Of a stretch of DNA of 44,395 nucleotides, positions 18,616 through 43,097 are shown piece by piece. Origin of the DNA: Chloroflexota bacterium (lineage in GTDB: Bacteria; Chloroflexota; Limnocylindria; Limnocylindrales; CSP1-4); NCBI GenBank assembly GCA_015478725.1, contig JADMIG010000008.1, forward strand, positions 65,174 through 109,568. The letters run 5' to 3'. Under the pieces are notes generated by a model, which ran no database searches, was not told the origin of the DNA, and worked only from the letters and a program-made list of their open reading frames with translations. A program made the translations under genes and the position numbers. The first letter of the stretch is position 1. Each line of letters starts with the position of its first letter.

Positions 18616-18665
18616 GCCCGACCGTGCTCTGGGCGGCCGTCGGCCGACCTTCCGGGACCCTCCGG

Positions 18666-18720
18666 TATACTCGTCCATCGCCGTCGCTCACCGGCCCGGC
18701 CCACCATCCACGCAGAGGAG
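18666..18720 (+). promoter_or_regulatory. Candidate promoter and ribosome binding site for the polysaccharide operon
   Basis: GGTATACT contains TATACT (18666-18671), the best -10 match in the window. AGGAG at 18716-18720 lies 11 bases before the GTG at 18732. This would drive the first five nucleotide-sugar genes and perhaps the glycosyltransferases behind them. Confidence 0.45.
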
Positions 18721-18731
18721 CCCGCGGATCC

Positions 18732-19400
18732 GTGATCGACCCCTCCGCGCGCGTCCACGCGACCGCGGACCTCGAGTCGGACGTGACCGTCGGGCCACGG
18801 ACGAGCATCTGGCACCGCGCGGCGATCCGGTCGGGCGCGCGGATCGGCGCCGACTGCATCGTGGGTCGTGACGCGTTCATCGACGCGGGCGTCGTCCTCG
18901 GCGACCGCGTCAAGGTCCAGAACGCGGCGCTCGTGTACCACGGGGTGACGGTCGAGGATGCCGTTTTCATCGGGCCGAACGCGATCCTCACCAACGACCG
19001 CTACCCGCGCGCGGTGACGGCGGACGGGACCCTCGCCCGCGGCGACGACTGGGAGGTGAGCCCGATCGTCCTCCATCACGGCTGTTCGATCGGCGCGGGT
19101 GCGATCGTCGTCGCCGGGGTGGACGTCGGCCGATTCGCGACCGTGGGTGCCGGGGCGGTCGTCACCCGGACGGTCTCGGACCATGCCCTCGTCGCAGGGA
19201 ATCCGGCCCGTCGACTCGGCTGGGTCTGTGCCTGCGGCGCCCGGCTTGCGGATCCGGACACCGGTTCCCCGGCCCCGCCCGCCCCCGATCCGGCCCACGA
19301 CCTGGACTGCCCGGCTTGCGGACGCCGCTACCGATACCTTCCCGACGAGGACGGTCTGCGGGAGCGGCCGGTCCAAACCGAACAAGGAGTGCCAGCATGA
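18732..19400 (+). CDS. WbpD-like N-acetyltransferase with C-terminal zinc ribbon
   Basis: A 222-residue left-handed beta-helix acyltransferase. Hexapeptide repeats run from IDPSARVHATADL through VGPRTSIWHRAAI to GRFATVGAGAVVTRTV. The sequence closely follows UDP-2-acetamido-3-amino-glucuronate N-acetyltransferases (WbpD/WlbB). Unusually, a C-terminal tail carries CACG and CPACGRRYRY, a four-cysteine zinc ribbon. The GTG at 18732 was chosen because it follows AGGAG and starts directly with SVIDPSARV; the upstream frame to 18624 covers the promoter. It is the first gene of an operon and overlaps the aminotransferase by ATGA. Its expected role is to acetylate the 3-amino group made by that aminotransferase. 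Confidence 0.88.
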   Translation: MIDPSARVHATADLESDVTVGPRTSIWHRAAIRSGARIGADCIVGRDAFIDAGVVLGDRVKVQNAALVYHGVTVEDAVFIGPNAILTNDRYPRAVTADGTLARGDDWEVSPIVLHHGCSIGAGAIVVAGVDVGRFATVGAGAVVTRTVSDHALVAGNPARRLGWVCACGARLADPDTGSPAPPAPDPAHDLDCPACGRRYRYLPDEDGLRERPVQTEQGVPA

Positions 19401-20545
19401 TCCCACCCGCCCGTCCGGACGTCGGCCCCGAGGAGGCGGCGGCCGTCGCCGAGGTCCTCTCGAGCGGGATGATCGCGATGGGCCGCCGGGTCGCGGAGCT
19501 CGAGGAGCGCTGGGCTGCGTACGTGGGGGTGAAGCACGCGATCGCGGTCTCGAACGGGACGATCGCCGAGATGTGCATCTTCGCCGGCCTCGGGCTCGGG
19601 CCCGGCGATGAGGTCATCACCGTCGGCCACACGTTCAATGCGACGGTCAGCTCCATCCTCTACACCGGCGCGACGCCCGTCTTCGTCGACATCGAGCCGG
19701 ACACGTACCTCATCGACGCGTCGCGGATCGAGGCGGCGATCACGCCCCGCACCCGGGCCATCTGCCCGGTCCACCTGTTCGGCCTCGTCGCCGACATGGA
19801 CATGATCATGGCCATCGCGGACCGCCACGGCATCGCGGTGGTCGAGGATGCGTGCCAGGCGCACGGGGCGACGTTCCGCGGGCGACGATCCGGCAGCTGG
19901 GGCCACGGCGCGTTCAGCCTCTACGCGACGAAGAACATGACCACCGGCGAGGGTGGCTTCGTCACCACGAACGACGATCGGCTCGCCGACTGGATCCGGC
20001 TCTACCGGAATCAGGGCATGCGCGAGCGCTACCACCACGAGATCCTCGGCTACAACTTCCGGCTCACGGACATCGGCGCGGCCATCGGCCTGGTCCAGTT
20101 CGGCAAGCTCGAGCGCAACACGGCGAAGCGGCAGGCGCTCGCGGCCCGCTACGACACGGCCTTCGCGGACCTGCCGATCCAGCTGCCGATCACCCCCGAC
20201 GGCCGAACGCACATCTACCACCAGTACACGATCGGGGTGGGCCCGGCTCGCGACGTCGTCGTCGCCGATCTCGCCGCGGCCGGCGTCGGGGTCGGGATCT
20301 ACTACCCGATCCCCGTCCATCGCCAGCCGTATGTCCTCGAGCTCGGGATCCAGGCGGACCTGCCGGTGACGGATCGCATCGCCGCCGGTTGCCTGAGCGT
20401 GCCGATGTATCCGGGGCTCACGGAAGACGAGGAGCGGACGGTCATCGCGGCCGTGCGCGCCGCCGTCGAGCGCCACGTGGGTCCGGCCCGGACGAATGCG
20501 GTCGCCGGCGAGTCGCGCGAGCGGGCGGGGACGCTCGCGCGGTGA
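19397..20545 (+). CDS. DegT/DnrJ/EryC1/StrS aminotransferase (WbpE-like)
   Basis: A 382-residue PLP-dependent sugar aminotransferase. Lys179 in YATKNMTTGEGGF is the PLP Schiff-base lysine. VEDACQAHGATFRG contains the Asp that contacts the PLP ring, and YNFRLTDIGAAIGLVQ is a typical family block. The ATG at 19397 has AAGGAG seven bases upstream and overlaps the acetyltransferase stop. By family and context it should transaminate a UDP-3-keto-2-acetamido sugar uronate using glutamate, as WbpE/WlbC does together with the WbpB-type oxidoreductase encoded next. The 3-amino product would be acetylated by the preceding gene product. Confidence 0.92.
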   Translation: MIPPARPDVGPEEAAAVAEVLSSGMIAMGRRVAELEERWAAYVGVKHAIAVSNGTIAEMCIFAGLGLGPGDEVITVGHTFNATVSSILYTGATPVFVDIEPDTYLIDASRIEAAITPRTRAICPVHLFGLVADMDMIMAIADRHGIAVVEDACQAHGATFRGRRSGSWGHGAFSLYATKNMTTGEGGFVTTNDDRLADWIRLYRNQGMRERYHHEILGYNFRLTDIGAAIGLVQFGKLERNTAKRQALAARYDTAFADLPIQLPITPDGRTHIYHQYTIGVGPARDVVVADLAAAGVGVGIYYPIPVHRQPYVLELGIQADLPVTDRIAAGCLSVPMYPGLTEDEERTVIAAVRAAVERHVGPARTNAVAGESRERAGTLAR

Positions 20546-21600
20546 CCGCCTCCGGCGCATGGCGTCCGGCCGGCGAGCGGGAGCTGCGGCTCGGCCTCGC
20601 CGGCATCGGCTCGATGGGCCGCAACCACCTCCGGGTGGTCTCGGCACGGACGGACGTCCGGCTCACGGCCATCGCCGACCCGGCAACGGACGCGCTCGCG
20701 GCCGCCGCGGCCCAGACGGGGGCACAGCCGTTCGCCGAGCCGCTCGCGATGATCGGCGAGGCGGACCTCGACGCCGTCATCGTCGCCTCGCCGACGACGA
20801 GCCATGCACCGCTCGCGCTCGCAGCGCTCGAGCGCGGGATCGCCGTCCTCGTGGAGAAACCCCTGGCCGGCACGGAGGACGAGGCGCGCCGCATCGTTGA
20901 CGCGAGCCGGGCGTCCGGTGTCCCGGTGCAGGTCGGCCATGTGGAACGGTTCAACCCGGCCGTCCTCGAGCTCGGCCGGCTCCTCGCGGCCGGCTGGCTC
21001 TCGACGATCTATGCGATCTCGAGCCGTCGGGCGGGTCCGTTCCCGGCCCGGATCCGCGACGTGGGGGTGACCGTCGACCTCGCGACCCACGACGTGGACA
21101 TCCTCAGCTGGATCGCCGGCGAGCGGCCGGTCCGCGTCTACGCCGAGACCGCCCAGCGGATCCATGCGACCCACGAGGACCTGCTCTTCGGGCTCCTCCA
21201 CTTCCCGTCCGGAGTCGTCGGACATCTCGACGTGGACTGGCTCACCCCCGCGAAGCGGCGGCAGCTCACGGTCGTCGGCGAGGAGGGGATGTTCGAGCTC
21301 GACTATCTCACCCAGCGCCTGACGTTCACGAAGGCCGCCGGCCTCGAGCACCCGCACCTCATCGCCGGCTACGCACCGACGTTCGAGGGGGATGTCGCCG
21401 TCCTCCCGGTCAGCAATGCCGAACCGCTCGCCGCCGAGCTCGACGCGTTCCTGCGGGTCGTGCGCAACGGCGGCCGGCCCGTCGTGAACGGCGAGGACGG
21501 CCTGTGGGCCGTGACGATCGCCAACGCTCTCCTCGCCGCGGCAGCGCGGCGAAGTCCCATCGACCTGTCCGATCCCACCGCGAGGCTTCCCGTCAGATGA
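20542..21600 (+). CDS. Gfo/Idh/MocA oxidoreductase (WbpB-like)
   Basis: A 352-residue NAD-dependent sugar oxidoreductase. RLGLAGIGSMGRNHLRV (about residues 14-30) is the Rossmann GxGxxG motif. VLVEKPLAGTEDEA holds the family EKP lysine. GVTVDLATHDVDILSW matches the conserved Asp/His active-site block. The GTG at 20542 overlaps the aminotransferase stop (GTGA). In the WbpB/WlbA role it would oxidise C-3 of UDP-GlcNAcA, with 2-oxoglutarate regenerating its NAD in the coupled WbpB-WbpE reaction. Other sugar substrates are possible for this broad family; the neighbouring genes are the main argument. The next gene overlaps by ATGA. Confidence 0.9.
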   Translation: MTASGAWRPAGERELRLGLAGIGSMGRNHLRVVSARTDVRLTAIADPATDALAAAAAQTGAQPFAEPLAMIGEADLDAVIVASPTTSHAPLALAALERGIAVLVEKPLAGTEDEARRIVDASRASGVPVQVGHVERFNPAVLELGRLLAAGWLSTIYAISSRRAGPFPARIRDVGVTVDLATHDVDILSWIAGERPVRVYAETAQRIHATHEDLLFGLLHFPSGVVGHLDVDWLTPAKRRQLTVVGEEGMFELDYLTQRLTFTKAAGLEHPHLIAGYAPTFEGDVAVLPVSNAEPLAAELDAFLRVVRNGGRPVVNGEDGLWAVTIANALLAAAARRSPIDLSDPTARLPVR

Positions 21601-23033
21601 CCATCACGACCCGCCCCTCCTCCAGCGGCCCGAGCCTCCTCGGCGGCTCGATCGAGCTCGCCGCGAACATCTGCCGTCACCCGACCGCGCGGCCCGTCGC
21701 GCCCTGGACGGGCGAACCGGGCACGGTCGGCACCGTCGCGGTCGTGGGAGCCGGCAAGATGGGTCTGCCGCTGTGCGCCCAGTACGCCGGCCACGGCTGG
21801 TCTGTCATCGCCGTGGACGTCCAGCAGGCGGTCGTCGATGCGATCAACGCGGGGGTCAGCCATGTCGCCGAGGAGCCGGGGCTCGCCGACCTCGTGCGAT
21901 CCGCCCACGAGGCGGGCCGACTCCGCGCCACGACGGACGGCACGGCGGCCACGCGAGAGGCGGACGTCGTCGTCCTCATCGTTCCGGTCATGCTCGACGA
22001 CGAGCAGCAGCCGGACTACCGGTACATGGACGCGGCCGTGGCCTCGATCGCGCCGGGCGTCCACGAGGGCTCGACGGTCATCTTCGAGACGACGCTTCCT
22101 GTCCGCGACACCCGCGACCGGTTCACGCCGCGCCTCGCGGCGGCCTCCGGCCTCGTGGCGGGTGCGTCGTTCTTCGTCGCGTTCAGCCCGGAGCGCCTGT
22201 ACAGCGGGGCGGCGCTCCGCAACCTCGCCACCTACCCCAAGCTCGTCGGCGGCATCGGCGACGCATCCGGAGATCGGGCCACCGCGTTCTATGCGTCGGT
22301 CCTCGACGCCGAGGTCGTCCGCATGAGCACGGCCGAAGCGGCCGAGTTCAGCAAGCTCGCCGACACGACCTACCGCGATGTCAACATCGCGCTCGCCAAC
22401 GAGTTCGCCCGGTACGCCGACCGTGTCGGCGTCGACATCCAGGAGGTCATCGCGGCGGCGAACAGCCAGCCGTACAGCCATATCCACCAGCCCGGGCTCG
22501 GCGTCGGCGGCCATTGCATCCCCGTCTATCCGCACTTCCTCCTGTCGCGAGCGCCCGAGATGGAGCTCGTCGCGGTCTCGCGACGCGTGAACGACAGCCA
22601 GGTGGGCCTCGCGATCCGGTCCATCCAGAAGGCGCTCGGCGGACTCGAGGGTGTGCCGGTCCTCGTCCTCGGCCTCACCTACCGGGAGGGTGTCCGCGAG
22701 CTCGCCTACTCGCGGGCGCTCCCGCTCATGGAGCGACTCGCCTTCCACGGCGCCCGCGTCTCGGCCTTCGATCCGCTCCTCTCGGCGGAGGAGGTCGAGC
22801 GGCTGTCGGTGACCCCGTACCGCTGGGGTGACGGCGGGCCGTTCCGGGCGATCGTCACCCAGACCGCGGACGTGCTCTTCGGCTCGCTCGCCTGGGACCG
22901 CTTCCCGGAGCTCGCGATCCTCTACGACGGGCGGAACAGTCTGCGGGGGATCGATCTCCCGACGGGCGTCGCGTATCACGGCGTCGGCGTCCAGACCCCG
23001 GACCGCGGCAGGTCGCGGGTCGGCGCACGCTGA
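21597..23033 (+). CDS. Nucleotide-sugar (UDP-HexNAc) 6-dehydrogenase
   Basis: A 478-residue UDP-sugar dehydrogenase of the UDP-glucose/GDP-mannose dehydrogenase family. VAVVGAGKMGLPL is the Rossmann loop. FSPERLYSG and EFSKLADTTYRDVNIALANE contain the conserved Glu and Lys. Cys307 in GVGGHCIPVYPHF is the catalytic thiol that carries the two-step oxidation to the uronate. About 43 residues precede the Rossmann fold, more than usual, but the ATGA overlap with the preceding gene supports this start. It is a candidate for the WbpA/WecC step, oxidising C-6 of UDP-GlcNAc or UDP-ManNAc. A second dehydrogenase at 33305 is a closer match to WbpA, so the division of labour is open. Confidence 0.9.
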   Translation: MTITTRPSSSGPSLLGGSIELAANICRHPTARPVAPWTGEPGTVGTVAVVGAGKMGLPLCAQYAGHGWSVIAVDVQQAVVDAINAGVSHVAEEPGLADLVRSAHEAGRLRATTDGTAATREADVVVLIVPVMLDDEQQPDYRYMDAAVASIAPGVHEGSTVIFETTLPVRDTRDRFTPRLAAASGLVAGASFFVAFSPERLYSGAALRNLATYPKLVGGIGDASGDRATAFYASVLDAEVVRMSTAEAAEFSKLADTTYRDVNIALANEFARYADRVGVDIQEVIAAANSQPYSHIHQPGLGVGGHCIPVYPHFLLSRAPEMELVAVSRRVNDSQVGLAIRSIQKALGGLEGVPVLVLGLTYREGVRELAYSRALPLMERLAFHGARVSAFDPLLSAEEVERLSVTPYRWGDGGPFRAIVTQTADVLFGSLAWDRFPELAILYDGRNSLRGIDLPTGVAYHGVGVQTPDRGRSRVGAR

Positions 23034-23050
23034 TCCCGGCGCCGGACCGG

Positions 23051-24196
23051 ATGGACGATCCATCGCCGCGCCTGCGGATCGTCACCGTCGTCGGGACCCG
23101 CCCCCAGCTCATCAAGGCGGCGGCCCTCCAGCCGGTCCTCCGCGAACGCCACGATGAGGTGTTCGTCGACACCGGCCAGCACTGGGACGATGCCCTCGCG
23201 GGCGACTTCTTCACGGAGCTCGGTCTCGCTCGGCCGGATCACGCGCTCGGCGTCGGCGGCGGCGGTCGGGCGGAGCAGATCGGTCGGATGCTCGTGGCCC
23301 TCGAGCCGATCCTCGCCGCCGAGCGACCGGACGCCGTCGTCGTCCTCGGCGACACGAACTCGACGGTCGCCGGGGCGCTCGCGGCCGCGGCGGCCGGGAT
23401 CCCCCTCGCCCACGTGGAGGCCGGCCTGCGAAGCTTCGATCGCACCATGCCGGAGGAGACGAACCGGATCGTCGCCGATCATCTCGCGACGTGGTGCCTC
23501 GCGCCGACACCGGCCGCGGTCGCCAACCTCGCCGCCGAGGGGATCGTCGCCGGGGTGACCCTCGTCGGCGACCTCATGCGGGAACTCGCTGCGCGGACGA
23601 GCGCCGAAGTCCGGGACGCGGCGGTCCTGGATGCCATCGGATCGCGGCTCGGCCTCGAACCCCGCGCCCTCGACCCTGGCACGTACGTCTTCGCCACGAT
23701 CCATCGGGCCGAGAACCGTCGAGCCGGCGCACTCTCCGCGTGGGCGGCGATCCTCGGCGACGCCGGACGGGATCGAACGGTGGTCCTCGCCCTGCACCCG
23801 GGCACCCGGGCGGCACTCGAGACGGCGGGCGTCGCCCTGCCACCGACCGTCCACGTCGTCGAACCGCTCGGCTATCGCACGACACTCGCCCTCCAGCTGC
23901 ACGCGGCGGCGGTCATGACGGACTCCGGTGGGATCCAGCGCGAGGCCGCCTGGCTCGGCGTCCCGTGCCTGATCCTCCGCGAGACGACGGAATGGGTGGA
24001 GGCGGTCGCGGCATCCGAGGGACGGATGGTGCTCGTGGGGCTCGACCGGGAGCGGGCCGCGGCCGAACTCGGCCGGGTGGCTCCGGCGACGGCGAGCCCG
24101 GCGCGGGCACGGGCACGGGCGGCGACGATCGATCTGCGATCCGCGGGCGTGGCGGAGGCGATCGTGGCCAGGCTGGAAACGGCCCGCGGCTCGTGA
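23051..24196 (+). CDS. UDP-N-acetylglucosamine 2-epimerase family protein (WecB/WbpI-like)
   Basis: A 381-residue non-hydrolysing UDP-HexNAc 2-epimerase. It shows GTRPQLIKAAAL at the N-terminus, VDTGQHWD, VLGDTNSTVAGAL, AHVEAGLRSFDRTMPEETNR and, late, MTDSGGIQREAAWLGVP, all standard blocks with the conserved Asp, Glu and His residues. It begins 17 bases after the dehydrogenase stop. In this operon its likely substrate is UDP-GlcNAc(3NAc)A, giving the manno isomer as WbpI/WlbD does. Epimerisation of UDP-GlcNAc to UDP-ManNAc is the alternative. Its stop overlaps the first glycosyltransferase start by GTGA. Confidence 0.93.
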   Translation: MDDPSPRLRIVTVVGTRPQLIKAAALQPVLRERHDEVFVDTGQHWDDALAGDFFTELGLARPDHALGVGGGGRAEQIGRMLVALEPILAAERPDAVVVLGDTNSTVAGALAAAAAGIPLAHVEAGLRSFDRTMPEETNRIVADHLATWCLAPTPAAVANLAAEGIVAGVTLVGDLMRELAARTSAEVRDAAVLDAIGSRLGLEPRALDPGTYVFATIHRAENRRAGALSAWAAILGDAGRDRTVVLALHPGTRAALETAGVALPPTVHVVEPLGYRTTLALQLHAAAVMTDSGGIQREAAWLGVPCLILRETTEWVEAVAASEGRMVLVGLDRERAAAELGRVAPATASPARARARAATIDLRSAGVAEAIVARLETARGS

Positions 24197-25551
24197 CCGA
24201 TCGATCGGCCGACCCGCAGCGACTCGTCCTCGTCCTGCCGACGAGCGGGGCGTTCGACTCGCGGACCTACCGCATCGCGAGCACCGTCGCCGGTCGGGGC
24301 CATACGGTCACGGTCCTCGCCCGCGCCGGAGCCGGACTGCCGAGCGAGGAGACCGACCCGAGCGGCTATCGGATCGTCCGGGTGGCCGTCGACCCGGTGG
24401 ATGCGCTCCCATTCCCAAGCTTCTGGCGGGCGCTCCGGCGACGAGTCCACCAGCGGTCAGCCGCCACCTCCGGCGCCGCGGCAGCGGACCGGGTGTCCGG
24501 CGCGGGGCCCGCGCTTCGTCGCGGATCGGACCTCGTCGGTCGCGGATCGGACCTCGTCGGTCGCGGGCGCGCGGCGGTCGGGTCGACGATCCGGATCGCC
24601 GCGATCGTCCTCACCGTGCGGGCCCAGGTCCGGGCGAGTCGGACGGTGGACCCGGGAGCCGAGCTCTACCACGGCATGGCCTACATGGGGATCCCTGTCG
24701 CGCTGTCGCTCGGACGCCGGAGCGGCGGGAGGGTCGTCTACGACGCTCGCGACATCTATGTCTCGGCCGGCAACCTCGCCCGCCTCCCAGGGCCGCTCCG
24801 CTGGCTCGTCGGGCGACTCGAACGCGGATGGGCCCGCCGAGCGGATCGGGCCGTGACGGTGAACGAGGCGTACGCTGACGTCATGACCCGGGCGTGGGGC
24901 GAGCGGCCGCTCGTCGTCATGAACTGCGCGTATCGGTTCGACCCCCCGGACCCGCCGATCCGCCGCTTCCATGAGCGCCTCGGACTGGCGCCGGAGACGC
25001 GGATCGTGCTCTACCAGGGTGGCTTCTCGCCGGACCGCGGCATCGAGCAGCTCATCGCTGCGATCCCGGACGTTCCGCATGCGGTCCTCGTGCTCATGGG
25101 TTACGGCGGGCTCCAGGCGGCGATCGAACGGGCAGCTGCCGATCCGGCCATGGATGGCCGTGTCCGGGTGCTCCCGCCGGTTCCGCCCGGGGATCTGGTC
25201 GCCTGGGTCGCGGCGGCGCACGTCGTCGCGATGCCCATCCAGTCGTCGACGCTGAACCATCGTCTCACCACACCGAACAAGCTCTTCGAGGCGCTGGCGG
25301 CCGGGGTCCCGGTGCTCGCGAGCGATCTGCCCGGCATGGCTCCGATCGTCCTCGGTACGGGGGCTGGTCTCGTCGTGGATCCGGCCGATCCGGCGGCGAT
25401 GGCGGCCGGGCTCCGGCGGATCCTCGAACCGGACGTGCGAACGACGATGGCTCGCCAGGCGCTCGCGGTCGCCCATGCCCGCTACAACTGGGAGTCGCAG
25501 GCCGCGATCCTGCTCGGGGAGTACGGGCGGCTGACCGGACGGCCCTGGTGA
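24193..25551 (+). CDS. Glycosyltransferase family 4-like protein
   Basis: A 452-residue GT-B glycosyltransferase. The N-terminal Rossmann-like domain starts LVLVLPTSGAFDSRTYRIAS. The C-terminal nucleotide-sugar domain has VLYQGGFSPDRGIEQLI and NHRLTTPNKLFEALAAGVPV, the place of the family's E-x7-E motif. Residues about 85-150 are an Arg/Gly/Ala-rich insertion with a hydrophobic stretch, containing an exact 7-residue duplication. The GTG at 24193 overlaps the epimerase stop. It shares VTVNE, TPNK and a terminal YNWES with the next two glycosyltransferases, so the three are probably paralogues. It is likely to add one sugar of the exported glycan. Confidence 0.88.
   Translation: MTDRSADPQRLVLVLPTSGAFDSRTYRIASTVAGRGHTVTVLARAGAGLPSEETDPSGYRIVRVAVDPVDALPFPSFWRALRRRVHQRSAATSGAAAADRVSGAGPALRRGSDLVGRGSDLVGRGRAAVGSTIRIAAIVLTVRAQVRASRTVDPGAELYHGMAYMGIPVALSLGRRSGGRVVYDARDIYVSAGNLARLPGPLRWLVGRLERGWARRADRAVTVNEAYADVMTRAWGERPLVVMNCAYRFDPPDPPIRRFHERLGLAPETRIVLYQGGFSPDRGIEQLIAAIPDVPHAVLVLMGYGGLQAAIERAAADPAMDGRVRVLPPVPPGDLVAWVAAAHVVAMPIQSSTLNHRLTTPNKLFEALAAGVPVLASDLPGMAPIVLGTGAGLVVDPADPAAMAAGLRRILEPDVRTTMARQALAVAHARYNWESQAAILLGEYGRLTGRPW
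24520..24561 (+). repeat. Perfect 21-bp tandem duplication
   Basis: Two identical 21-base units, 24520-24540 and 24541-24561, encode RGSDLVG twice in frame (residues 110-123 of the glycosyltransferase). The repeat lies in the non-conserved inter-domain insertion. Confidence 0.9.
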
Positions 25552-25588: not shown

Positions 25589-26851
25589 ATGACTCCGCCG
25601 CGGGCCGTGCTCCTCGTCGCGAACGCAGCCGATCCGTATTCGCGCGGGCTCCGCGTCGCCCGGAGCCTCGCTGCGGCCGGGTACGACGTGGAGATCGCGG
25701 CGGTCGCGGATGCCGACCATCCGCGATCCGGGACGGACGGCGCGGTGCGGATCGAACGCTACGCACCCTCCGGCGGTTGGGCGCGGTATGCCCGCGATCG
25801 CCGGCAGCAGGCGGGCGGAAGCAGAGTGCTCGACCGGATCCGCCGGATCCCCGATCTCGCGGTGCGGGCGCTCGCCTGGCCCGCCCACGTCCGGGGCTGG
25901 TGGCGCACCCTGCGGCAGACGCTCCCGCCGGCCGATCTCTACCACGCCTTCGGCATCCTCACCGTGCCGGTGGCGATCGCGCTGGCCCGGGACGCCCGAC
26001 GACACGGGCGAGCGGGACGGGTGGTGTACGACGTGATCGACGTGATCCTCGAGTCGAACAATGTGGAGCGGATACCGCGTCCGCTGCTCCTCGCCGACCG
26101 CATCCGCGAGCGTCGCTGGGCCGCCGCCGCGGACGCCGTCGTCACCGTCAACGAGGAGATCGCGGACCACCTCGTCCGGACGTGGCGGCTCGGGGCGCGG
26201 CCGACCGTCCTGCTCAACTGTCAGCCGCGATGGGTGCCGGCGGATCCGGAGCCGGATCTCATCAGGGCGGCGACCGGGATCCCGGTCGAGCGGCGGATCG
26301 TCCTGTTCCTTGGCCGTCTCGGTCGCGATCGCGGTCTCGACGAGGCCGCCGAGGCGGTGCTGCGCCTCCACGACGCGGCGCTCGTCATGGTCGGATTCGG
26401 GCCGTGGACCGATCGGCTTCGCGCTCGCGACTCGGACCCCCGGTTCGTCGGACGCCACTTCACCCTGCCGCCCGTCCATCCGGATGACGTCCCGCTCTGG
26501 AGCGCCTCCGCCGATGCCTCGATCATCGCCGTCCCCGGCCGCTCGCTGAACCAGCGCCTCTCCACGCCGAACAAGTTCTGGGAGAGCCTCACGGCGGGCA
26601 CGCCGGTCGTCGTGGGACGCGATCTCGCCGTCATGCGCCGGATCGTCGAGACCGAGGGGCTCGGATCCGTCGCCGACCCGTCCGATCCGGCGGACCTTGC
26701 GCGCGCCCTCGGCGAGGTGCTCGACGGTGCGCCCGCCGAGGTCGCGGCGATGCGGGAGCGATGTCTCGCCATCACCCGCGACGTGTACAACTGGGAGTCC
26801 GCGGTCCAGTCGTACCTCGAGCTCGTCCGGACCCTGGTGCCGTCCCGATGA
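25589..26851 (+). CDS. Glycosyltransferase family 4-like protein
   Basis: A 420-residue GT-B glycosyltransferase, second of three tandem paralogues. The N-terminal domain has VLLVANAADPYSRGLRVA, then an Arg-rich region and DLYHAFGILTVPVAIAL. The C-terminal domain has IVLFLGRLGRDRGLDEA and LNQRLSTPNKFWESLTAGTP, and ends in YNWESAVQSYLELVR. It starts 37 bases after the previous gene, the largest gap in this part of the operon, and overlaps the next gene by ATGA. There are no membrane helices; it probably acts at the inner face of the membrane. The donor and acceptor sugars cannot be told. Confidence 0.88.
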   Translation: MTPPRAVLLVANAADPYSRGLRVARSLAAAGYDVEIAAVADADHPRSGTDGAVRIERYAPSGGWARYARDRRQQAGGSRVLDRIRRIPDLAVRALAWPAHVRGWWRTLRQTLPPADLYHAFGILTVPVAIALARDARRHGRAGRVVYDVIDVILESNNVERIPRPLLLADRIRERRWAAAADAVVTVNEEIADHLVRTWRLGARPTVLLNCQPRWVPADPEPDLIRAATGIPVERRIVLFLGRLGRDRGLDEAAEAVLRLHDAALVMVGFGPWTDRLRARDSDPRFVGRHFTLPPVHPDDVPLWSASADASIIAVPGRSLNQRLSTPNKFWESLTAGTPVVVGRDLAVMRRIVETEGLGSVADPSDPADLARALGEVLDGAPAEVAAMRERCLAITRDVYNWESAVQSYLELVRTLVPSR

Positions 26852-29800
26852 GCCGGGTCGTCATGTTCGTCTTCAACGACTGTCGGAACGACGCCCGCGT
26901 CCTCCGCGAGGCCGCGAGTCTCGTTGCCGCCGGCCACACCGTCACGATCATGGCCCGGCCTCGCGACCCCGTCGCCGTCGTCGGCGATCGAGAGGTCCGC
27001 GGCGGGTTCGAGATCGTCCGGGTGGCGGTCCCCCATCGGTGGCGATTCTTCTGGACGTGGGCCCGCTATCCGTGGCGGATGCGGCGCTGGTGGGTCGGGC
27101 GCGTCAATCGCGCCATCCACCACCTCCCGACGGGCGCCGCCGAGCTGGTGGGGCTCGCCGCGGCCGCCGCGCTGACGCTCGTCTGGGCGGCGATCCGGGC
27201 CCCGTTCCACCTCGCCGCCCGGGGTCGAGGAGTCCCGCCGGGCGGGTCGAACATCGACTGGGCGGTCCGCTGGCGATGGAGCGTTCTCGGCTGGGCGGAC
27301 CGCGTGGCCGACGAGGCGCCGCCCGCGGACGTCTATCACGGACACGATCTGAGCGGACTCGAGGCGGCCGGGCGGGCGCAGCGCCGGAACGGCGGAGCGC
27401 TTGTTTGCGACAGCCACGAGATCTTCCTCGAGTCCGGCACGAACGCCGGCCGGCCACGGATCCTCAAGGCGTGGCTCGCCCGGAGCGAGCGGCGCTGGGT
27501 GGGCCAGGCCGCGGCGCTCGTCACCGTGAACGAGTCGCTCGCGGACGATCTCGGTCGGCGGTACGGACCGAGCCGGACGGTCGTCGTCCACAACTGTCCG
27601 GCGAGGTGGGACCCGCCGACGCCGCGACCCGACCTCATCCGCACGACTGCCGGCATCCCGGTCGACGCGCCGATCGCCCTCTACCACGGAAGCTTCGCGG
27701 CCCACCGCGGCCTGGAGGAGCTCGCCGCGGCGATCCTCCGCCCGAGCCTCGAGCGGGTCCATGCCGTCTTCCTCGGCTACGGCTCCCAGCGGGCGCTCCT
27801 CGACCGGATGGTCCTCGACCCGCTGTACGAGGGTCGACTCCACATCCTCGACGCCGTCCCACCGGACGAGCTCCTGCCGTGGGTCGCCTCGGCCGACGTC
27901 GGCGTGATGGCGATCCAGGCCTCGACCCGCAACCATCGTCTCTCCACCCCGAACAAGCTCTTCGAGTGCCTCGCGGCCGGGCTGCCCGTCGTCGTGAGCG
28001 ACTTCGACGAGATGCACCGGATCGTCCTCGACGATCCCTCGGGACCCCTCGGAGCGACGTGCGTCCCGGACGACGTCGACGATGTCGCCCGGGCGATCCG
28101 TTCGGTGGTCGACCTGGCGCCGGCGGACCGTGCGGCACTCCGGACTCGCTGTCTCGAGGCCGCGCATCGGCGCTGGAACTGGGAGACGGAGGTGGCGGGA
28201 CTCCTCGCCCTCTACCGGGACCTGCCGTCGACGGTCGTTGCTCCCGTGGCCACCGCGAGCTCGCCGGCGGGCCAGGTCGTGCCATCCCCCGCGAGCGGCG
28301 CCATCGCGTCGCCGGCGGCGAGCGCGATCCCCTCCAGGGTGCTCTTCGCCGCGCGCTGGTACCCGGCCCACGACGATCCGGGGCGTGGCATCTTCGTGGC
28401 CGACCTCGCCACGGCGCTCACCGAAGCCGGCATCGACATCGAGATCGCGTCGTGGGAACCGGCGCTCGCCCGTGGCGTGAACGGGCCGGCGGAGGCCGCG
28501 ACGACGGTCGCGGCGGCGCGCGAGCGGTGGGCTGCGGTCGCTGGTTCGGCGGTCGCCGCTCGACCGCGCTCCTGGGGATCACCCGGCGTGCCGGTCGTCC
28601 GCCTGCCGGCGATCGTGCCGAGCGTGGCGGGCGTGGAGCGTGACCCGCTCGAGCTCGCGGAGCTGCAGGCGGCGACGCTCGTTCCGTACGGCGAAGCGGT
28701 CGCGGCTCGACGACCTTATGCGCTGATCCACGCCCATACGGGGATCCCGGACGGCCTCGCCGCGAGCCGGCTTGCCGATCGGCTCGGCCTCCCGCTCCTC
28801 GTGACCGAGCACGACTCGCTCATCGTCGGCCGCCTTGCCGACGGGCGCCTCCGCGATGCGTACCGCCCGCTGCTGGAAGGGCCACGCCGGGTGGTCGCGG
28901 TGAGCCCATCGCTCCGCGACGACCTGGCCCGGGTCCTCGTCGTGGATCCGGCCCGGATCGGGGTCGTGCCGAACCCCGTCGACCTCGTCGCCTTCACCTC
29001 GACGGGGCCCGCCGGTCGCGATCCGGACGAGCTCCTGTGGGTCGGCGCGCGCAAGGCGAGCAAGGGCACGGACACCCTCCTGCAGGCGTTCGCGATCGCG
29101 CGCGCCGAACGGCCGCTCCTTCGCCTCAGGCTCGTCGGTGCGGCGCCCACAGCGGACGAGGAGGCGCGATTCCGCGGCCTTGCGAGCGAGCTCGGGCTCG
29201 CCGACGCCATCGCCTTCGAGCCGGCCACGGACCGGGCGGGGGTCGCGGCGGCGATGGCGCACGCAGCGATCTTCGTCCACCCGAGCCCGCGCGAGACGTT
29301 CGGGGTGGTGGCAGCGGAGGCGCTCGCGTCGGGACTGCCGGTCGCGGCGACCCCGTCGGGAGGCGTCGAATCGATCGTCGGGACGGATGGGACCTGCGGG
29401 ACGGTCGCCGACGGGTTGACGGCCGGCGCCCTTGCCGCGGCGATCGGCCGGACCCTCGATCGCCGGCTGACGTACGACGCGGCGGCACTCCGGGCCCGCG
29501 CCGAGACGTTCAATCCGACCGCCGTCGCCGTCGCGACGATCGCCGAATACCGGCGGCTGCTCGGCGGGGCCGAGTTCGGCCGGACCGAGCGGGACGGGGC
29601 GACGCCCAGGCCTCGCCCGCCGCAGCGCCGGCTACCGCGGGCAGGTGAAGGTTCCGTGGGTTCGGTTCCCGGCCGCGGACTGCCGCTCGTCGTCGGATTC
29701 AATCGGCGCGCGGCGCTCACGCGGATCGCGGCACTGCCCGTCGACCTCCGTGACGAGCTCGAGATCGTCAGTTCCATCGCCGCCGCGCACGGCGGGGATG

Positions 29801-30171
29801 CGCTGCCCGCCGCGACGTGGCACGACGTGGACGCGGAGGCCTCCCACCGCGCCGCCGTGGTCGCTGCCGGTGGGCCCGTTCGCCCGACCGGGTCCGCGGG
29901 CCGCATGCTTCGCCTGGTCCTCCATCCGATGCGCACGATCCGCCTCCGCGCGCTCGCGGGCCGGCGCGTCCGGATGATCGCGGCTGACCGCGCTGCGGCG
30001 GTGGCCGCCGTCCTCGACCAGCGCGTCGCCCGCGGCCTGCAGCGCGGCCCGCTGCTCGCCCTCGAGGCCGACGATGTCGCGACGCTCGCGCCGCTGCTCG
30101 ATGACGGGGTGCCCCTCGAACCGACGACCCTCCGCGCCCTCGCGGACCGCTGGGACGAGGTGGACCACTAG
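26848..30171 (+). CDS. Double glycosyltransferase fusion with unknown C-terminal domain
   Basis: An 1107-residue protein with three parts. Residues 1-455 are a GT4-like enzyme paralogous to the two upstream genes (VVMFVFNDCRNDARVLREA, NHRLSTPNKLFECLAAGLPV, WNWETEVAGLLALY), with a hydrophobic stretch near residues 100-120. An Ala/Ser/Pro linker (456-497) leads to a second, different GT-B enzyme at about 498-910 (LFAARWYPAHDDPGRGIFV, LLVTEHDSLIVGRL, FVHPSPRETFGVVAAEALAS). A second basic Pro-rich linker joins a 165-residue alpha-helical C-terminal domain that I do not recognise. The frame is continuous, with no internal stop or shift. It may add two successive sugars. The start overlaps the preceding stop by ATGA. 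Confidence 0.85.
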   Translation: MSRVVMFVFNDCRNDARVLREAASLVAAGHTVTIMARPRDPVAVVGDREVRGGFEIVRVAVPHRWRFFWTWARYPWRMRRWWVGRVNRAIHHLPTGAAELVGLAAAAALTLVWAAIRAPFHLAARGRGVPPGGSNIDWAVRWRWSVLGWADRVADEAPPADVYHGHDLSGLEAAGRAQRRNGGALVCDSHEIFLESGTNAGRPRILKAWLARSERRWVGQAAALVTVNESLADDLGRRYGPSRTVVVHNCPARWDPPTPRPDLIRTTAGIPVDAPIALYHGSFAAHRGLEELAAAILRPSLERVHAVFLGYGSQRALLDRMVLDPLYEGRLHILDAVPPDELLPWVASADVGVMAIQASTRNHRLSTPNKLFECLAAGLPVVVSDFDEMHRIVLDDPSGPLGATCVPDDVDDVARAIRSVVDLAPADRAALRTRCLEAAHRRWNWETEVAGLLALYRDLPSTVVAPVATASSPAGQVVPSPASGAIASPAASAIPSRVLFAARWYPAHDDPGRGIFVADLATALTEAGIDIEIASWEPALARGVNGPAEAATTVAAARERWAAVAGSAVAARPRSWGSPGVPVVRLPAIVPSVAGVERDPLELAELQAATLVPYGEAVAARRPYALIHAHTGIPDGLAASRLADRLGLPLLVTEHDSLIVGRLADGRLRDAYRPLLEGPRRVVAVSPSLRDDLARVLVVDPARIGVVPNPVDLVAFTSTGPAGRDPDELLWVGARKASKGTDTLLQAFAIARAERPLLRLRLVGAAPTADEEARFRGLASELGLADAIAFEPATDRAGVAAAMAHAAIFVHPSPRETFGVVAAEALASGLPVAATPSGGVESIVGTDGTCGTVADGLTAGALAAAIGRTLDRRLTYDAAALRARAETFNPTAVAVATIAEYRRLLGGAEFGRTERDGATPRPRPPQRRLPRAGEGSVGSVPGRGLPLVVGFNRRAALTRIAALPVDLRDELEIVSSIAAAHGGDALPAATWHDVDAEASHRAAVVAAGGPVRPTGSAGRMLRLVLHPMRTIRLRALAGRRVRMIAADRAAAVAAVLDQRVARGLQRGPLLALEADDVATLAPLLDDGVPLEPTTLRALADRWDEVDH

Positions 30172-30214
30172 AGGTCGCGCCCGGCCGAGTTCCCGCCGCT
30201 CCGCCGCTCCGCCG

Positions 30215-31135
30215 CTACCGCCGCGTCCCGACCGCGCTGCGTGGCACGCCGAGCGCCGCTGCCGTCTCCGCGCTCGTGCCGAGGAACGTGGCCGCCTCGG
30301 CGGCTTTCCGCGCCCGTTCCGCGTCCGAGCGCTCACGGTGGATCCGCACGATCTCGGCCGGGTCGCCCTCGGCGACCACGTGACCGAGCTCGATGAGCAT
30401 CGCCCGGTTGCAGAACGCCGTCACCCATTCCATATCGTGGGTGACGAGGACGATCGCCTTCGCTGCCCGGGCGAGCTCAAGGACCCGCGCCCTGCTCTTC
30501 TCACGGAAGACCTGATCGCCGGTCGCGAGCACCTCGTCGAGGAGGAGGACGTCCGGGTCGACCGAGGTCGCGATCGCGAAGCCGAGGCGGGCCCGCATGC
30601 CGGACGAATACGTCTTGATCGGCGCATCGATGAACTGGCCGATGTCCGCGAAATCGATGATCCGATCGATGCCGTCCACCATCTGGTCGTGCTCGATGCC
30701 CATGAACGCACCGGCGAGGTGGATGTTGTCGCGGCCGGTGAGCTCCTGGTCGAAGCCCGCCCCGAGCATGAGCAGGCTCGAGATGTGGCCGCGAACGTCG
30801 ATCGCGCCCTCGGACGGGGTGATGATGCCGGCGAGGACCTGGAGGAGCGTGCTCTTGCCGGCGCCGTTCGGGCCGATGACGGCGAGTGACTCGCCCTGGA
30901 CGAGACGGAACGAGACGTTGCGGAGCGCCCAGAACGTCCGATCGCCCTCCCCCCGGTGGAGCATCGTCGCGAGCGTCTGGCGGAAGGTGTTCTTCTTCGT
31001 CAGCCGCAGGTTGTAGCGAACGCCGAGGTCCTGCACATCGATCGCATAGGGCGCGGCGAGGCCGGCAAGGGCCCCGTTTTTCGACCCGGCGGCCGCTCCT
31101 GACCCGTTCTTCGACCCGCCGTTCCGGAGGCCCAT
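30215..31135 (-). CDS. Polysaccharide ABC exporter, ATP-binding subunit (Wzt/TagH-like)
   Basis: A 306-residue ABC ATPase of the polysaccharide/teichoic-acid export group. Walker A is GPNGAGKST (88-96), the signature YSSGMRARLGFA starts at 176, and Walker B is VLLLDE (196-201) followed by VLATGDQVF. The first 30 residues are a Gly/Asn/Ser/Lys-rich tail. The domain ends soon after the ATPase core, so the C-terminal carbohydrate-binding domain of Wzt proteins that recognise capped chains is absent. The start ATG at 31135 overlaps the permease stop by ATGA. It energises export of the glycan made by the flanking glycosyltransferases. Confidence 0.93.
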   Translation of the reverse strand: MGLRNGGSKNGSGAAAGSKNGALAGLAAPYAIDVQDLGVRYNLRLTKKNTFRQTLATMLHRGEGDRTFWALRNVSFRLVQGESLAVIGPNGAGKSTLLQVLAGIITPSEGAIDVRGHISSLLMLGAGFDQELTGRDNIHLAGAFMGIEHDQMVDGIDRIIDFADIGQFIDAPIKTYSSGMRARLGFAIATSVDPDVLLLDEVLATGDQVFREKSRARVLELARAAKAIVLVTHDMEWVTAFCNRAMLIELGHVVAEGDPAEIVRIHRERSDAERARKAAEAATFLGTSAETAAALGVPRSAVGTRR

Positions 31136-32001
31136 CAGAGGACCTTCGCGAAGGCGGGCTCGAGGCGCTTGAAGAACATCGTCGCGACGACGAGGAGGAG
31201 GGCGCTCCCGACGAGGACGACACCGAGGTTCACGAAGTCGGGGGCGGTCCCGTAGTAGATCGCGTTGCGGTACGAGTCGAACAGCCAGAAGAACGGGTTC
31301 AGCTGCATGAGGTGGAAGATCGTGGGGTGCTTGTCGGCGAGGGACGCGAACTCCGGCTGGCCCCACAGCCCCGGCGACAGGTAGAACCACAGGCGGAGCA
31401 GATGTCGGGCGAGGTTGCCGACATCGCGGAAGAAGACGTTGAGCGCGGAGACGACGAACCCCATCCCGAGGGTGAACACGAACTGGACCGCGGCGATGAG
31501 CGGGATGTACAGCAGGGTGATGTGGATCCGGTCCGGATAGAGCAGGACGAGCATCCCGGTGAGCGGGATGATCCCGAAGGCGAACTGGACGACCGCGCTG
31601 AGGAGCGCGGACAGCGGCAGGACCACCTTGGGGAACTGGATCTGCTTGATGAGCTTGTCCTGGCCGCTCACGGAGCTGATCGAGTCGCTCATGGAGGTGG
31701 AGAACCACTTCCACGGCAGGATCGCCGCGAAGATGAAGAGCGGATACGCAGGCGTCGTGCGCTGGAAGACGAGCGTCACGAGGACGACGTAGACGGCCAT
31801 CTGGAGGAGCGGATCGAGGATCCACCAGATGTTCCCGAAGAGGGTGTCCGTGCCCTTCTTCTTGAGATCCGCCCGGGCCAGGTAGGCGATGAGGCGGCGG
31901 CGCGACCTGACCTCAGCCAGCGCCTCGCCGACGAGTCCGATCGGTCCGGGACGGGTGGCCGTCGTCCGGTATGCGACCGGGATGTCGTTGGTGATGTCCA
32001 T
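31135..32001 (-). CDS. Polysaccharide ABC exporter, permease subunit (Wzm/TagG-like)
   Basis: A 288-residue ABC-2 type membrane protein with about six transmembrane helices. It begins with an amphipathic cytoplasmic N-terminus (LIAYLARADLKKKGTDTLFG), then WWILDPLLQMAVYVVLVTLV. LNVFFRDVGNLARHLL and the late LMQLNPFFWLFDSYRNAIYY are the characteristic conserved blocks of Wzm/TagG permeases. It forms the channel with the ATPase encoded downstream. The gene is divergent from the glycosyltransferase at 32028, with only 26 bases between the two starts. Confidence 0.93.
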   Translation of the reverse strand: MDITNDIPVAYRTTATRPGPIGLVGEALAEVRSRRRLIAYLARADLKKKGTDTLFGNIWWILDPLLQMAVYVVLVTLVFQRTTPAYPLFIFAAILPWKWFSTSMSDSISSVSGQDKLIKQIQFPKVVLPLSALLSAVVQFAFGIIPLTGMLVLLYPDRIHITLLYIPLIAAVQFVFTLGMGFVVSALNVFFRDVGNLARHLLRLWFYLSPGLWGQPEFASLADKHPTIFHLMQLNPFFWLFDSYRNAIYYGTAPDFVNLGVVLVGSALLLVVATMFFKRLEPAFAKVL

Positions 32002-32027
32002 GCGCGTCCGGAGGGTAGCATGCTCCC
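32002..32027. promoter_or_regulatory. 26-base divergent start region with overlapping -10-like hexamers
   Basis: Plus strand: TAGCAT (32016-32021) ends six bases before the GTG at 32028. Minus strand: TACCCT (32017 to 32012) ends ten bases before the ATG at 32001. The centre AGCATGCT (32017-32024) is a perfect 8-bp palindrome. Neither gene has a Shine-Dalgarno sequence here, so both may be leaderless. Confidence 0.4.
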
Positions 32028-33308
32028 GTGAGTTCCGGCCCCGAGGCCGACGGACGGCCGAGACCGGCCCCCGCCCGGCCCGTCTGCATGATCGTCCACG
32101 CCTATTACGACGAGGACTCGCGCGTCCGGCGCCAGGCCGAGTCCCTCGTTGCGCGCGGGCGACCGGTGGACGTCTACTCCCTCCGCCGTCCCGGCGATCC
32201 GTCGACCGGCACGCTCGCCGGGGTCCGCATCGTTCGCCTCGACGTCCAGCGTCACCAGGGCGCCGGGATCGTCACCTATCTCCGCGAGTACCTCTCGTTC
32301 CTCGTGCGGGCCGGCTGGACGGCCACCAGGGCCCACCGCCGTCGTCGCTACGCGGTCGCGGAGGTCCACACCCTGCCGGACTTCCTCGTGGCGGCTGCGC
32401 TTCCTCTTCGCCTCGCCGGCGTGCCGGTCATCCTCGACCTCCATGAGGCGATGCCGGATTTCTTCCGGATGCGATTCCGGCGCCTCGCGAACCCAGCCTC
32501 CTATCGGATCCTCCTCCTCGCCGAGCGGATCTCGATCGGCTGCGCGAGTGCCGTCATGACGGTCAACGACGCCCTCGCCGATCGACTCGTCGCCCGGGGC
32601 GTCCGCCGCGACCGGATCACGGTCCTCCTCAACAGCCCATCCCTGGAGCGCTTCGATCCGGCCCTCCACCCGGCCCGCGCCTTCATGGCGGACGGGACGC
32701 TGCGCCTCGTCTACGCCGGCGCGCTCACGCCGACCTACGAGCTCGACGTCGTCCTCGAGGCGGTCGCGACCCTCCGGCGCGCCCGACCCGGACTGCCCGT
32801 CGCACTCAAGGTCTACGGTCGGGGCGATTCGGCCGCCACGCTCGAGGTCCGCGCGGCCGAGCTCGGTCTCGCCGAACGGGTCGCCTTCCCCGGCCGCATC
32901 CCCATCGAGGACGTCCCGGCCGCGATCGCCGGGGCGGACATCGGCCTCGCCCCCACCCGCCGCGATCCGTTCACGGACGCGTCCCTCTCCACGAAGATCT
33001 TCGAGTACGGCGCAATGGGCAAGCCCGTCGTCGCGTCGCGACTGCCGATGGTCGAACGGACCTTCCCGTCCGGTGGCGTCGCGACGTACGAGCCGGGCGA
33101 TGCGGGGGACCTCGCCCGGTCTATCCTCGCCCTCGTGGACGACGCGGCGGCTCGCGACCACGCCGTCGCGACGACCCTCTCCCGGATCCGGGAGCTCTCG
33201 TGGGAGCACTCGGCCGAGGCGCTCGAGAAGCTGATCGAACGCCTCGCGTCCCGAGCCGTGCCGTCGGCCCCCTCCAGCCCCTCCGCGCCGCTATCCTCCG
33301 TCCCATGA
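32028..33308 (+). CDS. Glycosyltransferase family 4-like protein
   Basis: A 426-residue GT-B glycosyltransferase. A short Pro-rich tail precedes VCMIVHAYYDEDSRVRRQAE. VPVILDLHEAMPDFFRMRF and VMTVNDALADRLVARG follow in the N-terminal domain. The nucleotide-sugar domain has LRLVYAGALTPTYELDVVLE, AFPGRIPIEDVPAAIAGADI and STKIFEYGAMGKPVVAS, typical of GT4. It is more distant from the three tandem paralogues upstream, sharing only the VNDALAD-like block. The GTG start is set by the 26-base divergent region. It overlaps the following dehydrogenase by ATGA. It probably adds a sugar to the exported glycan. Confidence 0.88.
   Translation: MSSGPEADGRPRPAPARPVCMIVHAYYDEDSRVRRQAESLVARGRPVDVYSLRRPGDPSTGTLAGVRIVRLDVQRHQGAGIVTYLREYLSFLVRAGWTATRAHRRRRYAVAEVHTLPDFLVAAALPLRLAGVPVILDLHEAMPDFFRMRFRRLANPASYRILLLAERISIGCASAVMTVNDALADRLVARGVRRDRITVLLNSPSLERFDPALHPARAFMADGTLRLVYAGALTPTYELDVVLEAVATLRRARPGLPVALKVYGRGDSAATLEVRAAELGLAERVAFPGRIPIEDVPAAIAGADIGLAPTRRDPFTDASLSTKIFEYGAMGKPVVASRLPMVERTFPSGGVATYEPGDAGDLARSILALVDDAAARDHAVATTLSRIRELSWEHSAEALEKLIERLASRAVPSAPSSPSAPLSSVP
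33292..33297 (+). promoter_or_regulatory. Candidate -10 hexamer (TATCCT) for the second dehydrogenase
   Basis: TATCCT lies within the end of the glycosyltransferase gene, seven bases before the ATG at 33305, the standard leaderless spacing. Translational coupling through the ATGA overlap is the alternative. Confidence 0.4.
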
Positions 33309-39050: not shown

Positions 39051-39871
39051 CGCCGCCGGAGGCGTACGACCCGCGCGCGTACTGGTCGCGCCTCCACGCG
39101 GAGGGGTCCCTCCGGTCCGTCGGCCAATCCGCCCTGCCGGTCGAGCTCAACGTGTGGCTCTATCGCGTACTCGAGCGGAACCTCCAGGCGTTCGTCCGGC
39201 GCCACGGACTCGCGAGGCCGGTGCCGAAGCGCGTCTTCGAGGTGGGGGCCGGCACCGGCTACTGGACCGCGTTCTGGCATCGACTCGGCGCCGACCGGGT
39301 GGACGGCTGCGACCTCGCCGCGTCGGCGGTCGAGCGGCTCCGCGAGCGATTCCCGGACGGCATGTTCGTCGCCGGCGACATCGCCGATGGCGGCGTCATC
39401 CCGACGGACGCCCCGTACGATCTCGTCACCATCATCAACGTCCTCCTCCACATCATCGACGAAGACCGTTTCGCGGCTGCCGCCCGGAACGTCGCCGGAG
39501 CCGTGGCGCCCGGCGGCCACGTCCTGCTCGTGGAGCCAGCCCTCCTCCTCGACACATCCGTTCGCCCGCTCCGCGACGGTGCGAGCTCCACGGCGCGCCC
39601 GCTCGAGCGATATCGGGAGGCGCTCGAGGCCGGCGGGCTCGCGTTCGTCGCCGCGGAGGCGAGCACGGTCGTCGCGAACAATCCGATCGAGCACGGTCTT
39701 CCGCACATCGAACGGTTCGCCCGGTCGTGGAAGACCGCGGTCCGGGAGGCCCGCAAGGGACCGCGTCGGGCGGATCTCGTCGGGCGGATCCTCTCGCTCG
39801 TCGATCGCCCCCTCATGCGGACGGGCGCGGCCCCGTCCGGCAAGATCCTCCTCTTCCGGCGCCCGTCCTGA
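39047..39871 (+). CDS. Class I SAM-dependent methyltransferase
   Basis: A 274-residue methyltransferase with the Rossmann-like SAM-binding fold. VFEVGAGTGYWTAFWHRLGA (around residues 64-83) is motif I, VDGCDLAASAVERLRERF supplies the acidic ribose contact, and PYDLVTIINVLLHIIDEDRF is motif II/post II. The rest, including a C-terminal helical stretch with basic residues, gives no substrate clue. The GTG start overlaps the rdgB stop, so it is the last gene of this operon. Small-molecule or lipid methylation is possible. Confidence 0.85.
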   Translation: MTPPEAYDPRAYWSRLHAEGSLRSVGQSALPVELNVWLYRVLERNLQAFVRRHGLARPVPKRVFEVGAGTGYWTAFWHRLGADRVDGCDLAASAVERLRERFPDGMFVAGDIADGGVIPTDAPYDLVTIINVLLHIIDEDRFAAAARNVAGAVAPGGHVLLVEPALLLDTSVRPLRDGASSTARPLERYREALEAGGLAFVAAEASTVVANNPIEHGLPHIERFARSWKTAVREARKGPRRADLVGRILSLVDRPLMRTGAAPSGKILLFRRPS

Positions 39872-41466: not shown

Positions 41467-42534
41467 GTGGCCCTTATCCATCGGTCTGACTCACGATCCT
41501 CGGCACGTCTCGCCTTCGAACGCGGGGCCGGGCAGTCGGTCGTCGAGTTCGCGGTCCTGCTGCCGTTGTTCATGCTCCTGCTCCTCGTCACGGTGGACTT
41601 CGGGCGTCTCTTCTTCTCCTACATCCAGATAACCAACGCCGCACGCGAAGGCGCCGCCTATGCGGCAGTCGATCCCACGAATCTCGCCGCTATCACGACC
41701 CGCGCCACCGCCGAGGCCAACTCCCAGGCCCAGGGCGGTGAGCATCCGATCGCGGTGACGACCGCGTGCGTCGACACGACCGGAGCGACGATCCCGTGCA
41801 GCGGCGCCCCCGGCGGGGGCGGCCCGGGCTACACGGTGACCGTGACCGCGAGCGAGGTGTTCAGCTTCCTCACGCCGTGGATGAATGGGCTCCTCGGCAA
41901 CAACTTCACGATGTCCACCTCGGCATCCGCAGTGGCCCTCGGCCTCGCGCCGAACAGCTCGGCCACGCAGCCGCCCGGCTGTGCGGCCCCATCGAGCGCG
42001 GTCATGTCCGTGGCCGGCTCCGGCCTGACGATCGACGTCGACGGCTCGGCGTCCCAGCCCTCGAGCGGCCTGTGCCACATCTCGGGCTACAACTGGTCCT
42101 TCGGCGACGGCACGACGGACGTGAGCTACGCCACGGGAACGGTCCACACGTACGCGTTTCCAGGCGTCTATGTGGTGACCCTGACCGTGACCAACCAGGG
42201 CGGAACGGCGACGACCACTTCGACCGTGACGGTCCCCCTGTCGACCACCTGCCTTGCTCCGCACGCGGCATTCTCGATCGCGCCGCCGACCGGGAGCGCC
42301 GGCTCGAGCGGGACGATCTTCGGCTTCGACGCCTCGGCAAGCACGAACATGGGAGTCGAGGCTTGCCATCCCCACTACACTTGGGACTTCGGCGACGGCG
42401 CCACGGGACCCGACGCCCCGACCACGACGCACCAGTACGTGCACTCCGCGCCGGGGACGACGGTTCGCGTCCGGCTGACCGTCTCGAACGACGCCGGGAG
42501 CGGCCAATCCACACAGACGATCACGCTCCAGTGA
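41467..42534 (+). CDS. TadE-like pilin/assembly domain fused to two PKD domains
   Basis: A 355-residue secreted or membrane protein. Residues about 20-65 are a TadE-type segment: GQSVVEFAVLLPLFMLLLLV then DFGRLFFSYIQITNAAREGA, a prepilin-like hydrophobic helix. After a region with a Cys pair come two PKD domains, about 165-256 (NWSFGDGTTDVS, Trp210) and 262-355 (YTWDFGDGATG, Trp306). PKD domains are extracellular beta-sandwich modules; fusion to a TadE segment suggests a displayed pilin-like adhesin. Seven cysteines outside the helix point to disulfides. The GTG at 41467 is the only reasonable start; the nearest GGAGG is 22 bases away. It overlaps the next gene by GTGA. Confidence 0.85.
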   Translation: MALIHRSDSRSSARLAFERGAGQSVVEFAVLLPLFMLLLLVTVDFGRLFFSYIQITNAAREGAAYAAVDPTNLAAITTRATAEANSQAQGGEHPIAVTTACVDTTGATIPCSGAPGGGGPGYTVTVTASEVFSFLTPWMNGLLGNNFTMSTSASAVALGLAPNSSATQPPGCAAPSSAVMSVAGSGLTIDVDGSASQPSSGLCHISGYNWSFGDGTTDVSYATGTVHTYAFPGVYVVTLTVTNQGGTATTTSTVTVPLSTTCLAPHAAFSIAPPTGSAGSSGTIFGFDASASTNMGVEACHPHYTWDFGDGATGPDAPTTTHQYVHSAPGTTVRVRLTVSNDAGSGQSTQTITLQ

Positions 42535-43088: not shown

Positions 43089-43097
43089 GAGTCGAAC

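Follow-up and report, generated by a model that had tools for sequence, protein, structure and literature searches.

In the ABC-transporter-dependent assembly of glycans by Gram-negative bacteria, several glycosyltransferase (GT) modules often share one polypeptide, and separate GT modules can interact (PMC11231755). The WbdA-type polymerases of Escherichia coli O9 and Klebsiella pneumoniae O3 and O5, which have two or three GT modules, serve such an ABC-transporter-dependent O-polysaccharide system (PMC11231755). A gene for a protein of comparable build lies in the DNA analyzed here, a 44,395-nt stretch of a Chloroflexota genome (GCA_015478725.1, contig JADMIG010000008.1, positions 65,174–109,568; hereafter called the window). 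Like the WbdA-type enzymes, the predicted protein combines two GT4-type modules in one polypeptide, and its locus contains a Wzm/Wzt-type ABC-2 exporter. Unlike them, it belongs to another phylum and is known from sequence, its modules represent two different GT4 subfamilies, and it ends in an undescribed C-terminal domain (CTD); no coiled-coil terminator was identified in the window locus. A search of the literature on glycosyltransferases under Limnocylindr- names yielded nothing but a taxonomy paper.

The second described system that resembles the locus is the five-enzyme route to UDP-ManNAc3NAcA, the Wbp/Wlb pathway of Pseudomonas aeruginosa, Bordetella pertussis, and Thermus thermophilus (PMC10622841). 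The same five gene types are grouped in the window, in this case in a Chloroflexota genome, in a locus that also encodes an ABC exporter, and assigned by similarity alone: five plus-strand genes (18624–24196) resembling WbpD, WbpE, WbpB, WbpA, and WbpI, all located together upstream of the fusion gene. The epimerase has its best match in the T. thermophilus UDP-2,3-diacetamido-2,3-dideoxy-glucuronic acid 2-epimerase (E 5e-75, compared to 4e-39 for WecB-type enzymes), and the aminotransferase of the locus matches WbpE (E 2e-77).

Organization of the Fusion Gene

The fusion gene occupies positions 26848–30171 on the plus strand. It is one open frame of 1107 codons terminated by TAG, as an earlier note on this DNA had read it, and its start overlaps the upstream GT gene by four bases (ATGA). 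Pfam recognizes two separate GT4-type units in the 1107-residue protein, the first ending at about residue 453 and the second spanning about 516–875. From these matches, alignments, and models we delimit a first glycosyltransferase module (GTA, residues 1–462; 26848–28233), a second one (GTB, residues 495 to ~907; 28330–29568), and the CTD (residues 945–1107; 29680–30168). The C-terminal domain proposed in the earlier note could indeed not be assigned to any family, but begins near residue 945 instead of 941 and thus comprises 163 residues. Both junctions consist of the Pro/Ala/Ser-rich linkers described previously. The first (residues 463–494; 28234–28329) is the point of fusion, and the second (residues ~908–944; 29569–29679) is predicted to be disordered (pLDDT <50 in the model of GTB with the CTD). 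Through both linkers the G+C content at third codon positions is 0.72–0.95, which is in the coding range. The frame exceeds what chance would produce, because both enzymes and the CTD have in-frame homologs and because the CTD has a codon-position bias: among close relatives, its third positions differ at ~1.7 to 3.7 times the rate of the first two.

Glycosyltransferase Modules

The proposed second, distinct glycosyltransferase from about residue 498 was borne out: the module starts at residue 495–498, and GTA and GTB are two different enzymes of the GT4 clan. GTB matches GT4 profiles (Pfam E 1e-31 to 1e-37), and both glutamates of its EX7E motif (E-TFGVVAA-E, in the region of E815 and E823) are invariant in 26 sequences. 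It has the GT-B fold with two Rossmann lobes and aligns over its full length with the GT4 structures 3c4q, 6d9t, and 7qsg (Z 24–26). These retaining GT4 enzymes, MshA, BshA, and a mycobacterial mannosyltransferase, thus have the EX7E motif and the full-length alignment in common with GTB, but none of them possesses the CTD found in the GTB-CTD protein. Since GTB scores far under the cut-offs that NCBIfam sets for MshA and BshA, its substrate may differ from theirs.

GTA is likewise a GT4-clan enzyme, with a match to Pfam Glyco_trans_1_2 at residues 330–453 along with second stretches assigned to other GT families. As had been suggested, it is paralogous to its neighbors, sharing 36 and 41% identity with the products of two upstream genes (24217–25551, start approximate, and 25589–26851, the latter with the ATGA overlap; both plus strand and supported by Pfam). 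Its nearest homolog is a stand-alone GT of a relative, which is 76% identical and ends at about residue 463. Inspection of the GTA sequence revealed no complete EX7E motif: the site reads STPNKLFECLAAG (KLFE), with the second glutamate kept and the first replaced by leucine. The first glutamate is missing in many GT4 members, and this is a common variant. Given the missing glutamate, GTA is less than certain to be catalytically active. A hydrophobic stretch in its N-lobe (residues ~96–118, AAELVGLAAAAALTLVWAAIRAPF) could perhaps insert into the membrane.

Ancestry of the GTB-CTD Protein and Possible Origin of the Fusion

A profile built from seven GTB-CTD proteins was run on 107 genomes of the same Limnocylindrales family, in which the relatives of the source genome form ~27 genera. 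It matched 31 of these genomes, and after removal of duplicates 31 loci besides the window were retained. In public genomes, the best relatives come from uncultivated Chloroflexota, and two of these carry the label Candidatus Limnocylindrales. The CTD follows GTB in frame at 25 of the 31 loci; at two others (L063, L065) the contig ends inside or just behind GTB, and at the remaining four (L073, L074, L075, L095) the CTD is out of frame or fragmented. These four are frameshift-broken GTB-CTD genes, either assembly errors or decaying copies. No clear GTB without a CTD was found among the 31 loci. GTB-CTD is an ancestral two-domain protein, and the CTD is an old partner of GTB. The interpretation of the frame as a tripartite fusion therefore holds insofar as three modules share one frame, but these are not three independent parts, as GTB and CTD already form one protein in relatives. 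GTA occurs in the frame of GTB at none of the 31 loci, which leaves the GTA-GTB junction as the only new one.

In three relatives GTA is located directly upstream of GTB. At L047 (the same place as L029 and L079) both genes are in the same frame, and a lone TAG directly precedes the ATG of GTB; at L055 and L058 the two are spaced by 38 nt. Loss of a single stop codon, such as the one between the L047 genes, could yield the arrangement in the window and is a possible route to the fusion.

A stop codon removed by sequencing error had been named in the earlier note as what would undo the fusion, and such an error, with GTB-CTD encoded separately as it is in every relative, would account for the absence of a fused GTB from all 31 other loci. 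It would also take little, as one base change is enough and several linker codons are one base away from a stop. We nevertheless regard a misread stop or assembly error as improbable, for the junction, in the one assembly available, does not resemble a lost stop. The 32-residue linker retains coding composition, no frame shift is seen, and the usual start signals are missing. Among the stand-alone GTB genes of relatives, 11 of 25 have a TANNNT element ending 4–9 nt before the start, compared to 0.6% of random positions in the same loci, and two more carry GATAAT or CATAAT at this position. The element resembles leaderless promoters, and leaderless transcription seems to be common in the family (loci L046–L092). 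The junction in the window, however, contains no ATG and no TANNNT or other promoter-like element, and upstream of the GTB homology the nearest in-frame GTG codons are at a distance of 17 and 28 codons. As a separate GTB gene in the window would thus be devoid of ordinary start signals, a real fusion is favored. The GTA-GTB fusion, seen in one assembly and in this genome only, is likely genuine, and judging from the frame it would be translated as one chain in the cell. It would then be a clear case of neighboring glycosyltransferase genes turning into one polypeptide.

The C-Terminal Domain

An alignment of 26 CTD sequences contains one invariant aspartate and near-invariant aspartate, arginine, and leucine residues, and its consensus ends with LAPGGLRWLADRW. 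The string ADRWDEVDH near the end of the window CTD forms the tail end of the conserved LRxLADRW motif. The CTD matches no Pfam or NCBIfam family; Pfam searches with the 26 members gave isolated chance matches only, and a sequence search of the PDB returned nothing above chance. AlphaFold2 predicts a well-folded alpha/beta domain (pLDDT 91.1, pTM 0.83), in which a strand, a helix, and two strands are followed by several helices, a further strand, and then more helices. Together with the 25 in-frame homologs, this speaks against an unstructured and unconserved C-terminal region, the other objection raised beforehand. The CTD is a conserved, undescribed domain family. Within the sampled genomes it occurs in a single Limnocylindrales family only, where it is nearly always located behind GTB: 400 sampled Chloroflexota genomes contained no convincing CTD outside the family, and matches with E 1e-4 to 1e-2 look like chance. 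Apparently free-standing CTDs in three genomes (G046, G055, and G093:C370) were rejected, because these fragments sit at contig ends.

The fold offers some indication of what the CTD might be. In VIA-align comparisons GT-B enzymes lead the matches (best 8ie4_B, Z 8.1 over 129 residues at 4.3 Å), with other Rossmann-like proteins close below. A GT-B N-lobe-like fold is suggested by the model, but the likeness is weak. Profile comparison gave no sign that the CTD is a copy of a lobe of GTA or GTB (hhalign probability <1% for both lobes of each). In the two-domain model of GTB and CTD (pTM 0.88) disorder is confined to the linker. An unplaced CTD should bring the pTM down to about 450/613 = 0.73; the domain thus probably packs on GTB in this prediction.

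One could accordingly ask whether the CTD is a reduced GT-B N-lobe, left behind after loss of the C-lobe, with a present role in binding the acceptor or the membrane. We consider this only tentatively. The order of strands and helices fits a GT-B N-lobe, and several of the GT-B enzymes at the top of the structural comparison align from the first strand to the C-terminal helix. On the other hand, Z ~8 is what models lacking a clear match usually reach, the CTD also scores Z 5 to 6 with threonine dehydrogenases and other Rossmann folds, and the lobes of GTA and GTB gave the negligible profile similarity mentioned above. Furthermore, Foldseek found no PDB match with E <0.001 (best E 0.067), which is not proof of a new fold. 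A different role, as a docking domain through which different enzymes (GTB or a methyltransferase) join a common complex that perhaps includes the ABC exporter, is brought up by a single relative, G045. Here, a diverged copy of the CTD (E 3.2e-18) stands at the N-terminus of a protein of 484 residues that also contains a class I methyltransferase (G045:C74; L199, 1676–3121, minus strand), and the domain consequently does not always follow a glycosyltransferase, a point for which a profile search had been proposed. Owing to this copy, the role of the CTD need not concern GTB alone. Directly behind this gene comes the homolog of the GT4 gene at 32028, and the locus also includes a GTB-CTD gene; G004 has a homologous methyltransferase gene that begins ~20 nt behind GTB-CTD. 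In addition, the exporter is found near GTB-CTD in 20 of the 23 relatives with long flanks. Still, the methyltransferase case is a single one, its CTD lacks the LRxLADRW motif, and the pTM of the GTB-CTD model suggests that the domain rests on GTB itself, so we deem a docking function unlikely. The CTD may perhaps dock to the exporter, as the earlier note had supposed, with the shared, conserved locus as the sole tie between them. It would be a long shot to propose that the CTD is a new assembly domain, which joins glycosyltransferases, chain-modifying methyltransferases, and the exporter in one membrane complex for polysaccharide export in Chloroflexota. If so, the shared CTD would do the job of the coiled-coil terminator proteins in Gram-negative O-antigen systems. 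In the window, the homolog (46%) of the CTD-bearing G045 methyltransferase is encoded by a separate gene (~39065–39868), ~9 kb from the fusion gene.

Proposed Function

The reading that we favor, with moderate confidence, is that the product of the fusion gene unites two glycosyltransferases acting in an ABC-exporter-dependent surface polysaccharide pathway, with the CTD as a long-standing accessory lobe of GTB. A lipid-linked polysaccharide would be assembled at the cytoplasmic side of the membrane, and the ABC transporter would export it. In this process, the flexible linker would join two GT4 enzymes that relatives produce separately, often from neighboring genes, and the fusion might keep two consecutive transferases on one membrane-held acceptor for the addition of successive sugars. 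The CTD, most likely packed on GTB, may help to hold either the lipid-linked chain or the membrane surface, or else a partner protein. In GT-B enzymes the N-lobe is the acceptor-binding lobe, and binding of acceptor, membrane, or partner by the CTD is suggested by its position, by a basic helical region in it, and by the weak resemblance to such a lobe. We infer the sugar specificity, the successive transfer, and the binding target of the CTD alike. The CTD adds a conserved, well-folded, and undescribed family, so far from one uncultivated Chloroflexota family, to the parts associated with surface polysaccharide assembly.

Genomic Context

The fusion gene is followed on the minus strand by the ABC exporter whose adjacency had been pointed out before, consisting of a Wzt/TagH-like ATPase (30215–31015, start approximate; Pfam ABC_tran, NCBIfam) and an ABC-2 permease (31135–32001; Pfam ABC2_membrane). 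The ATPase, with ~266 residues, apparently lacks the C-terminal carbohydrate-binding domain of Wzt-type exporters. Two plus-strand open reading frames (30074–30889 and 30886–32031) have no family match and were dismissed as shadows of the opposite-strand ABC genes. A further GT4 glycosyltransferase gene (32028–33308, plus strand; Pfam) is conserved beside GTB-CTD in relatives, where GTA arrays, the epimerase, and the dehydrogenase also recur. From the sugar genes and the exporter together, an envelope polymer containing ManNAc3NAcA can be predicted for this group, about whose envelope chemistry very little is known. Toward the end of the window, TadE/Tad-like pilus genes are located at 41467–44192, one of which encodes PKD domains.
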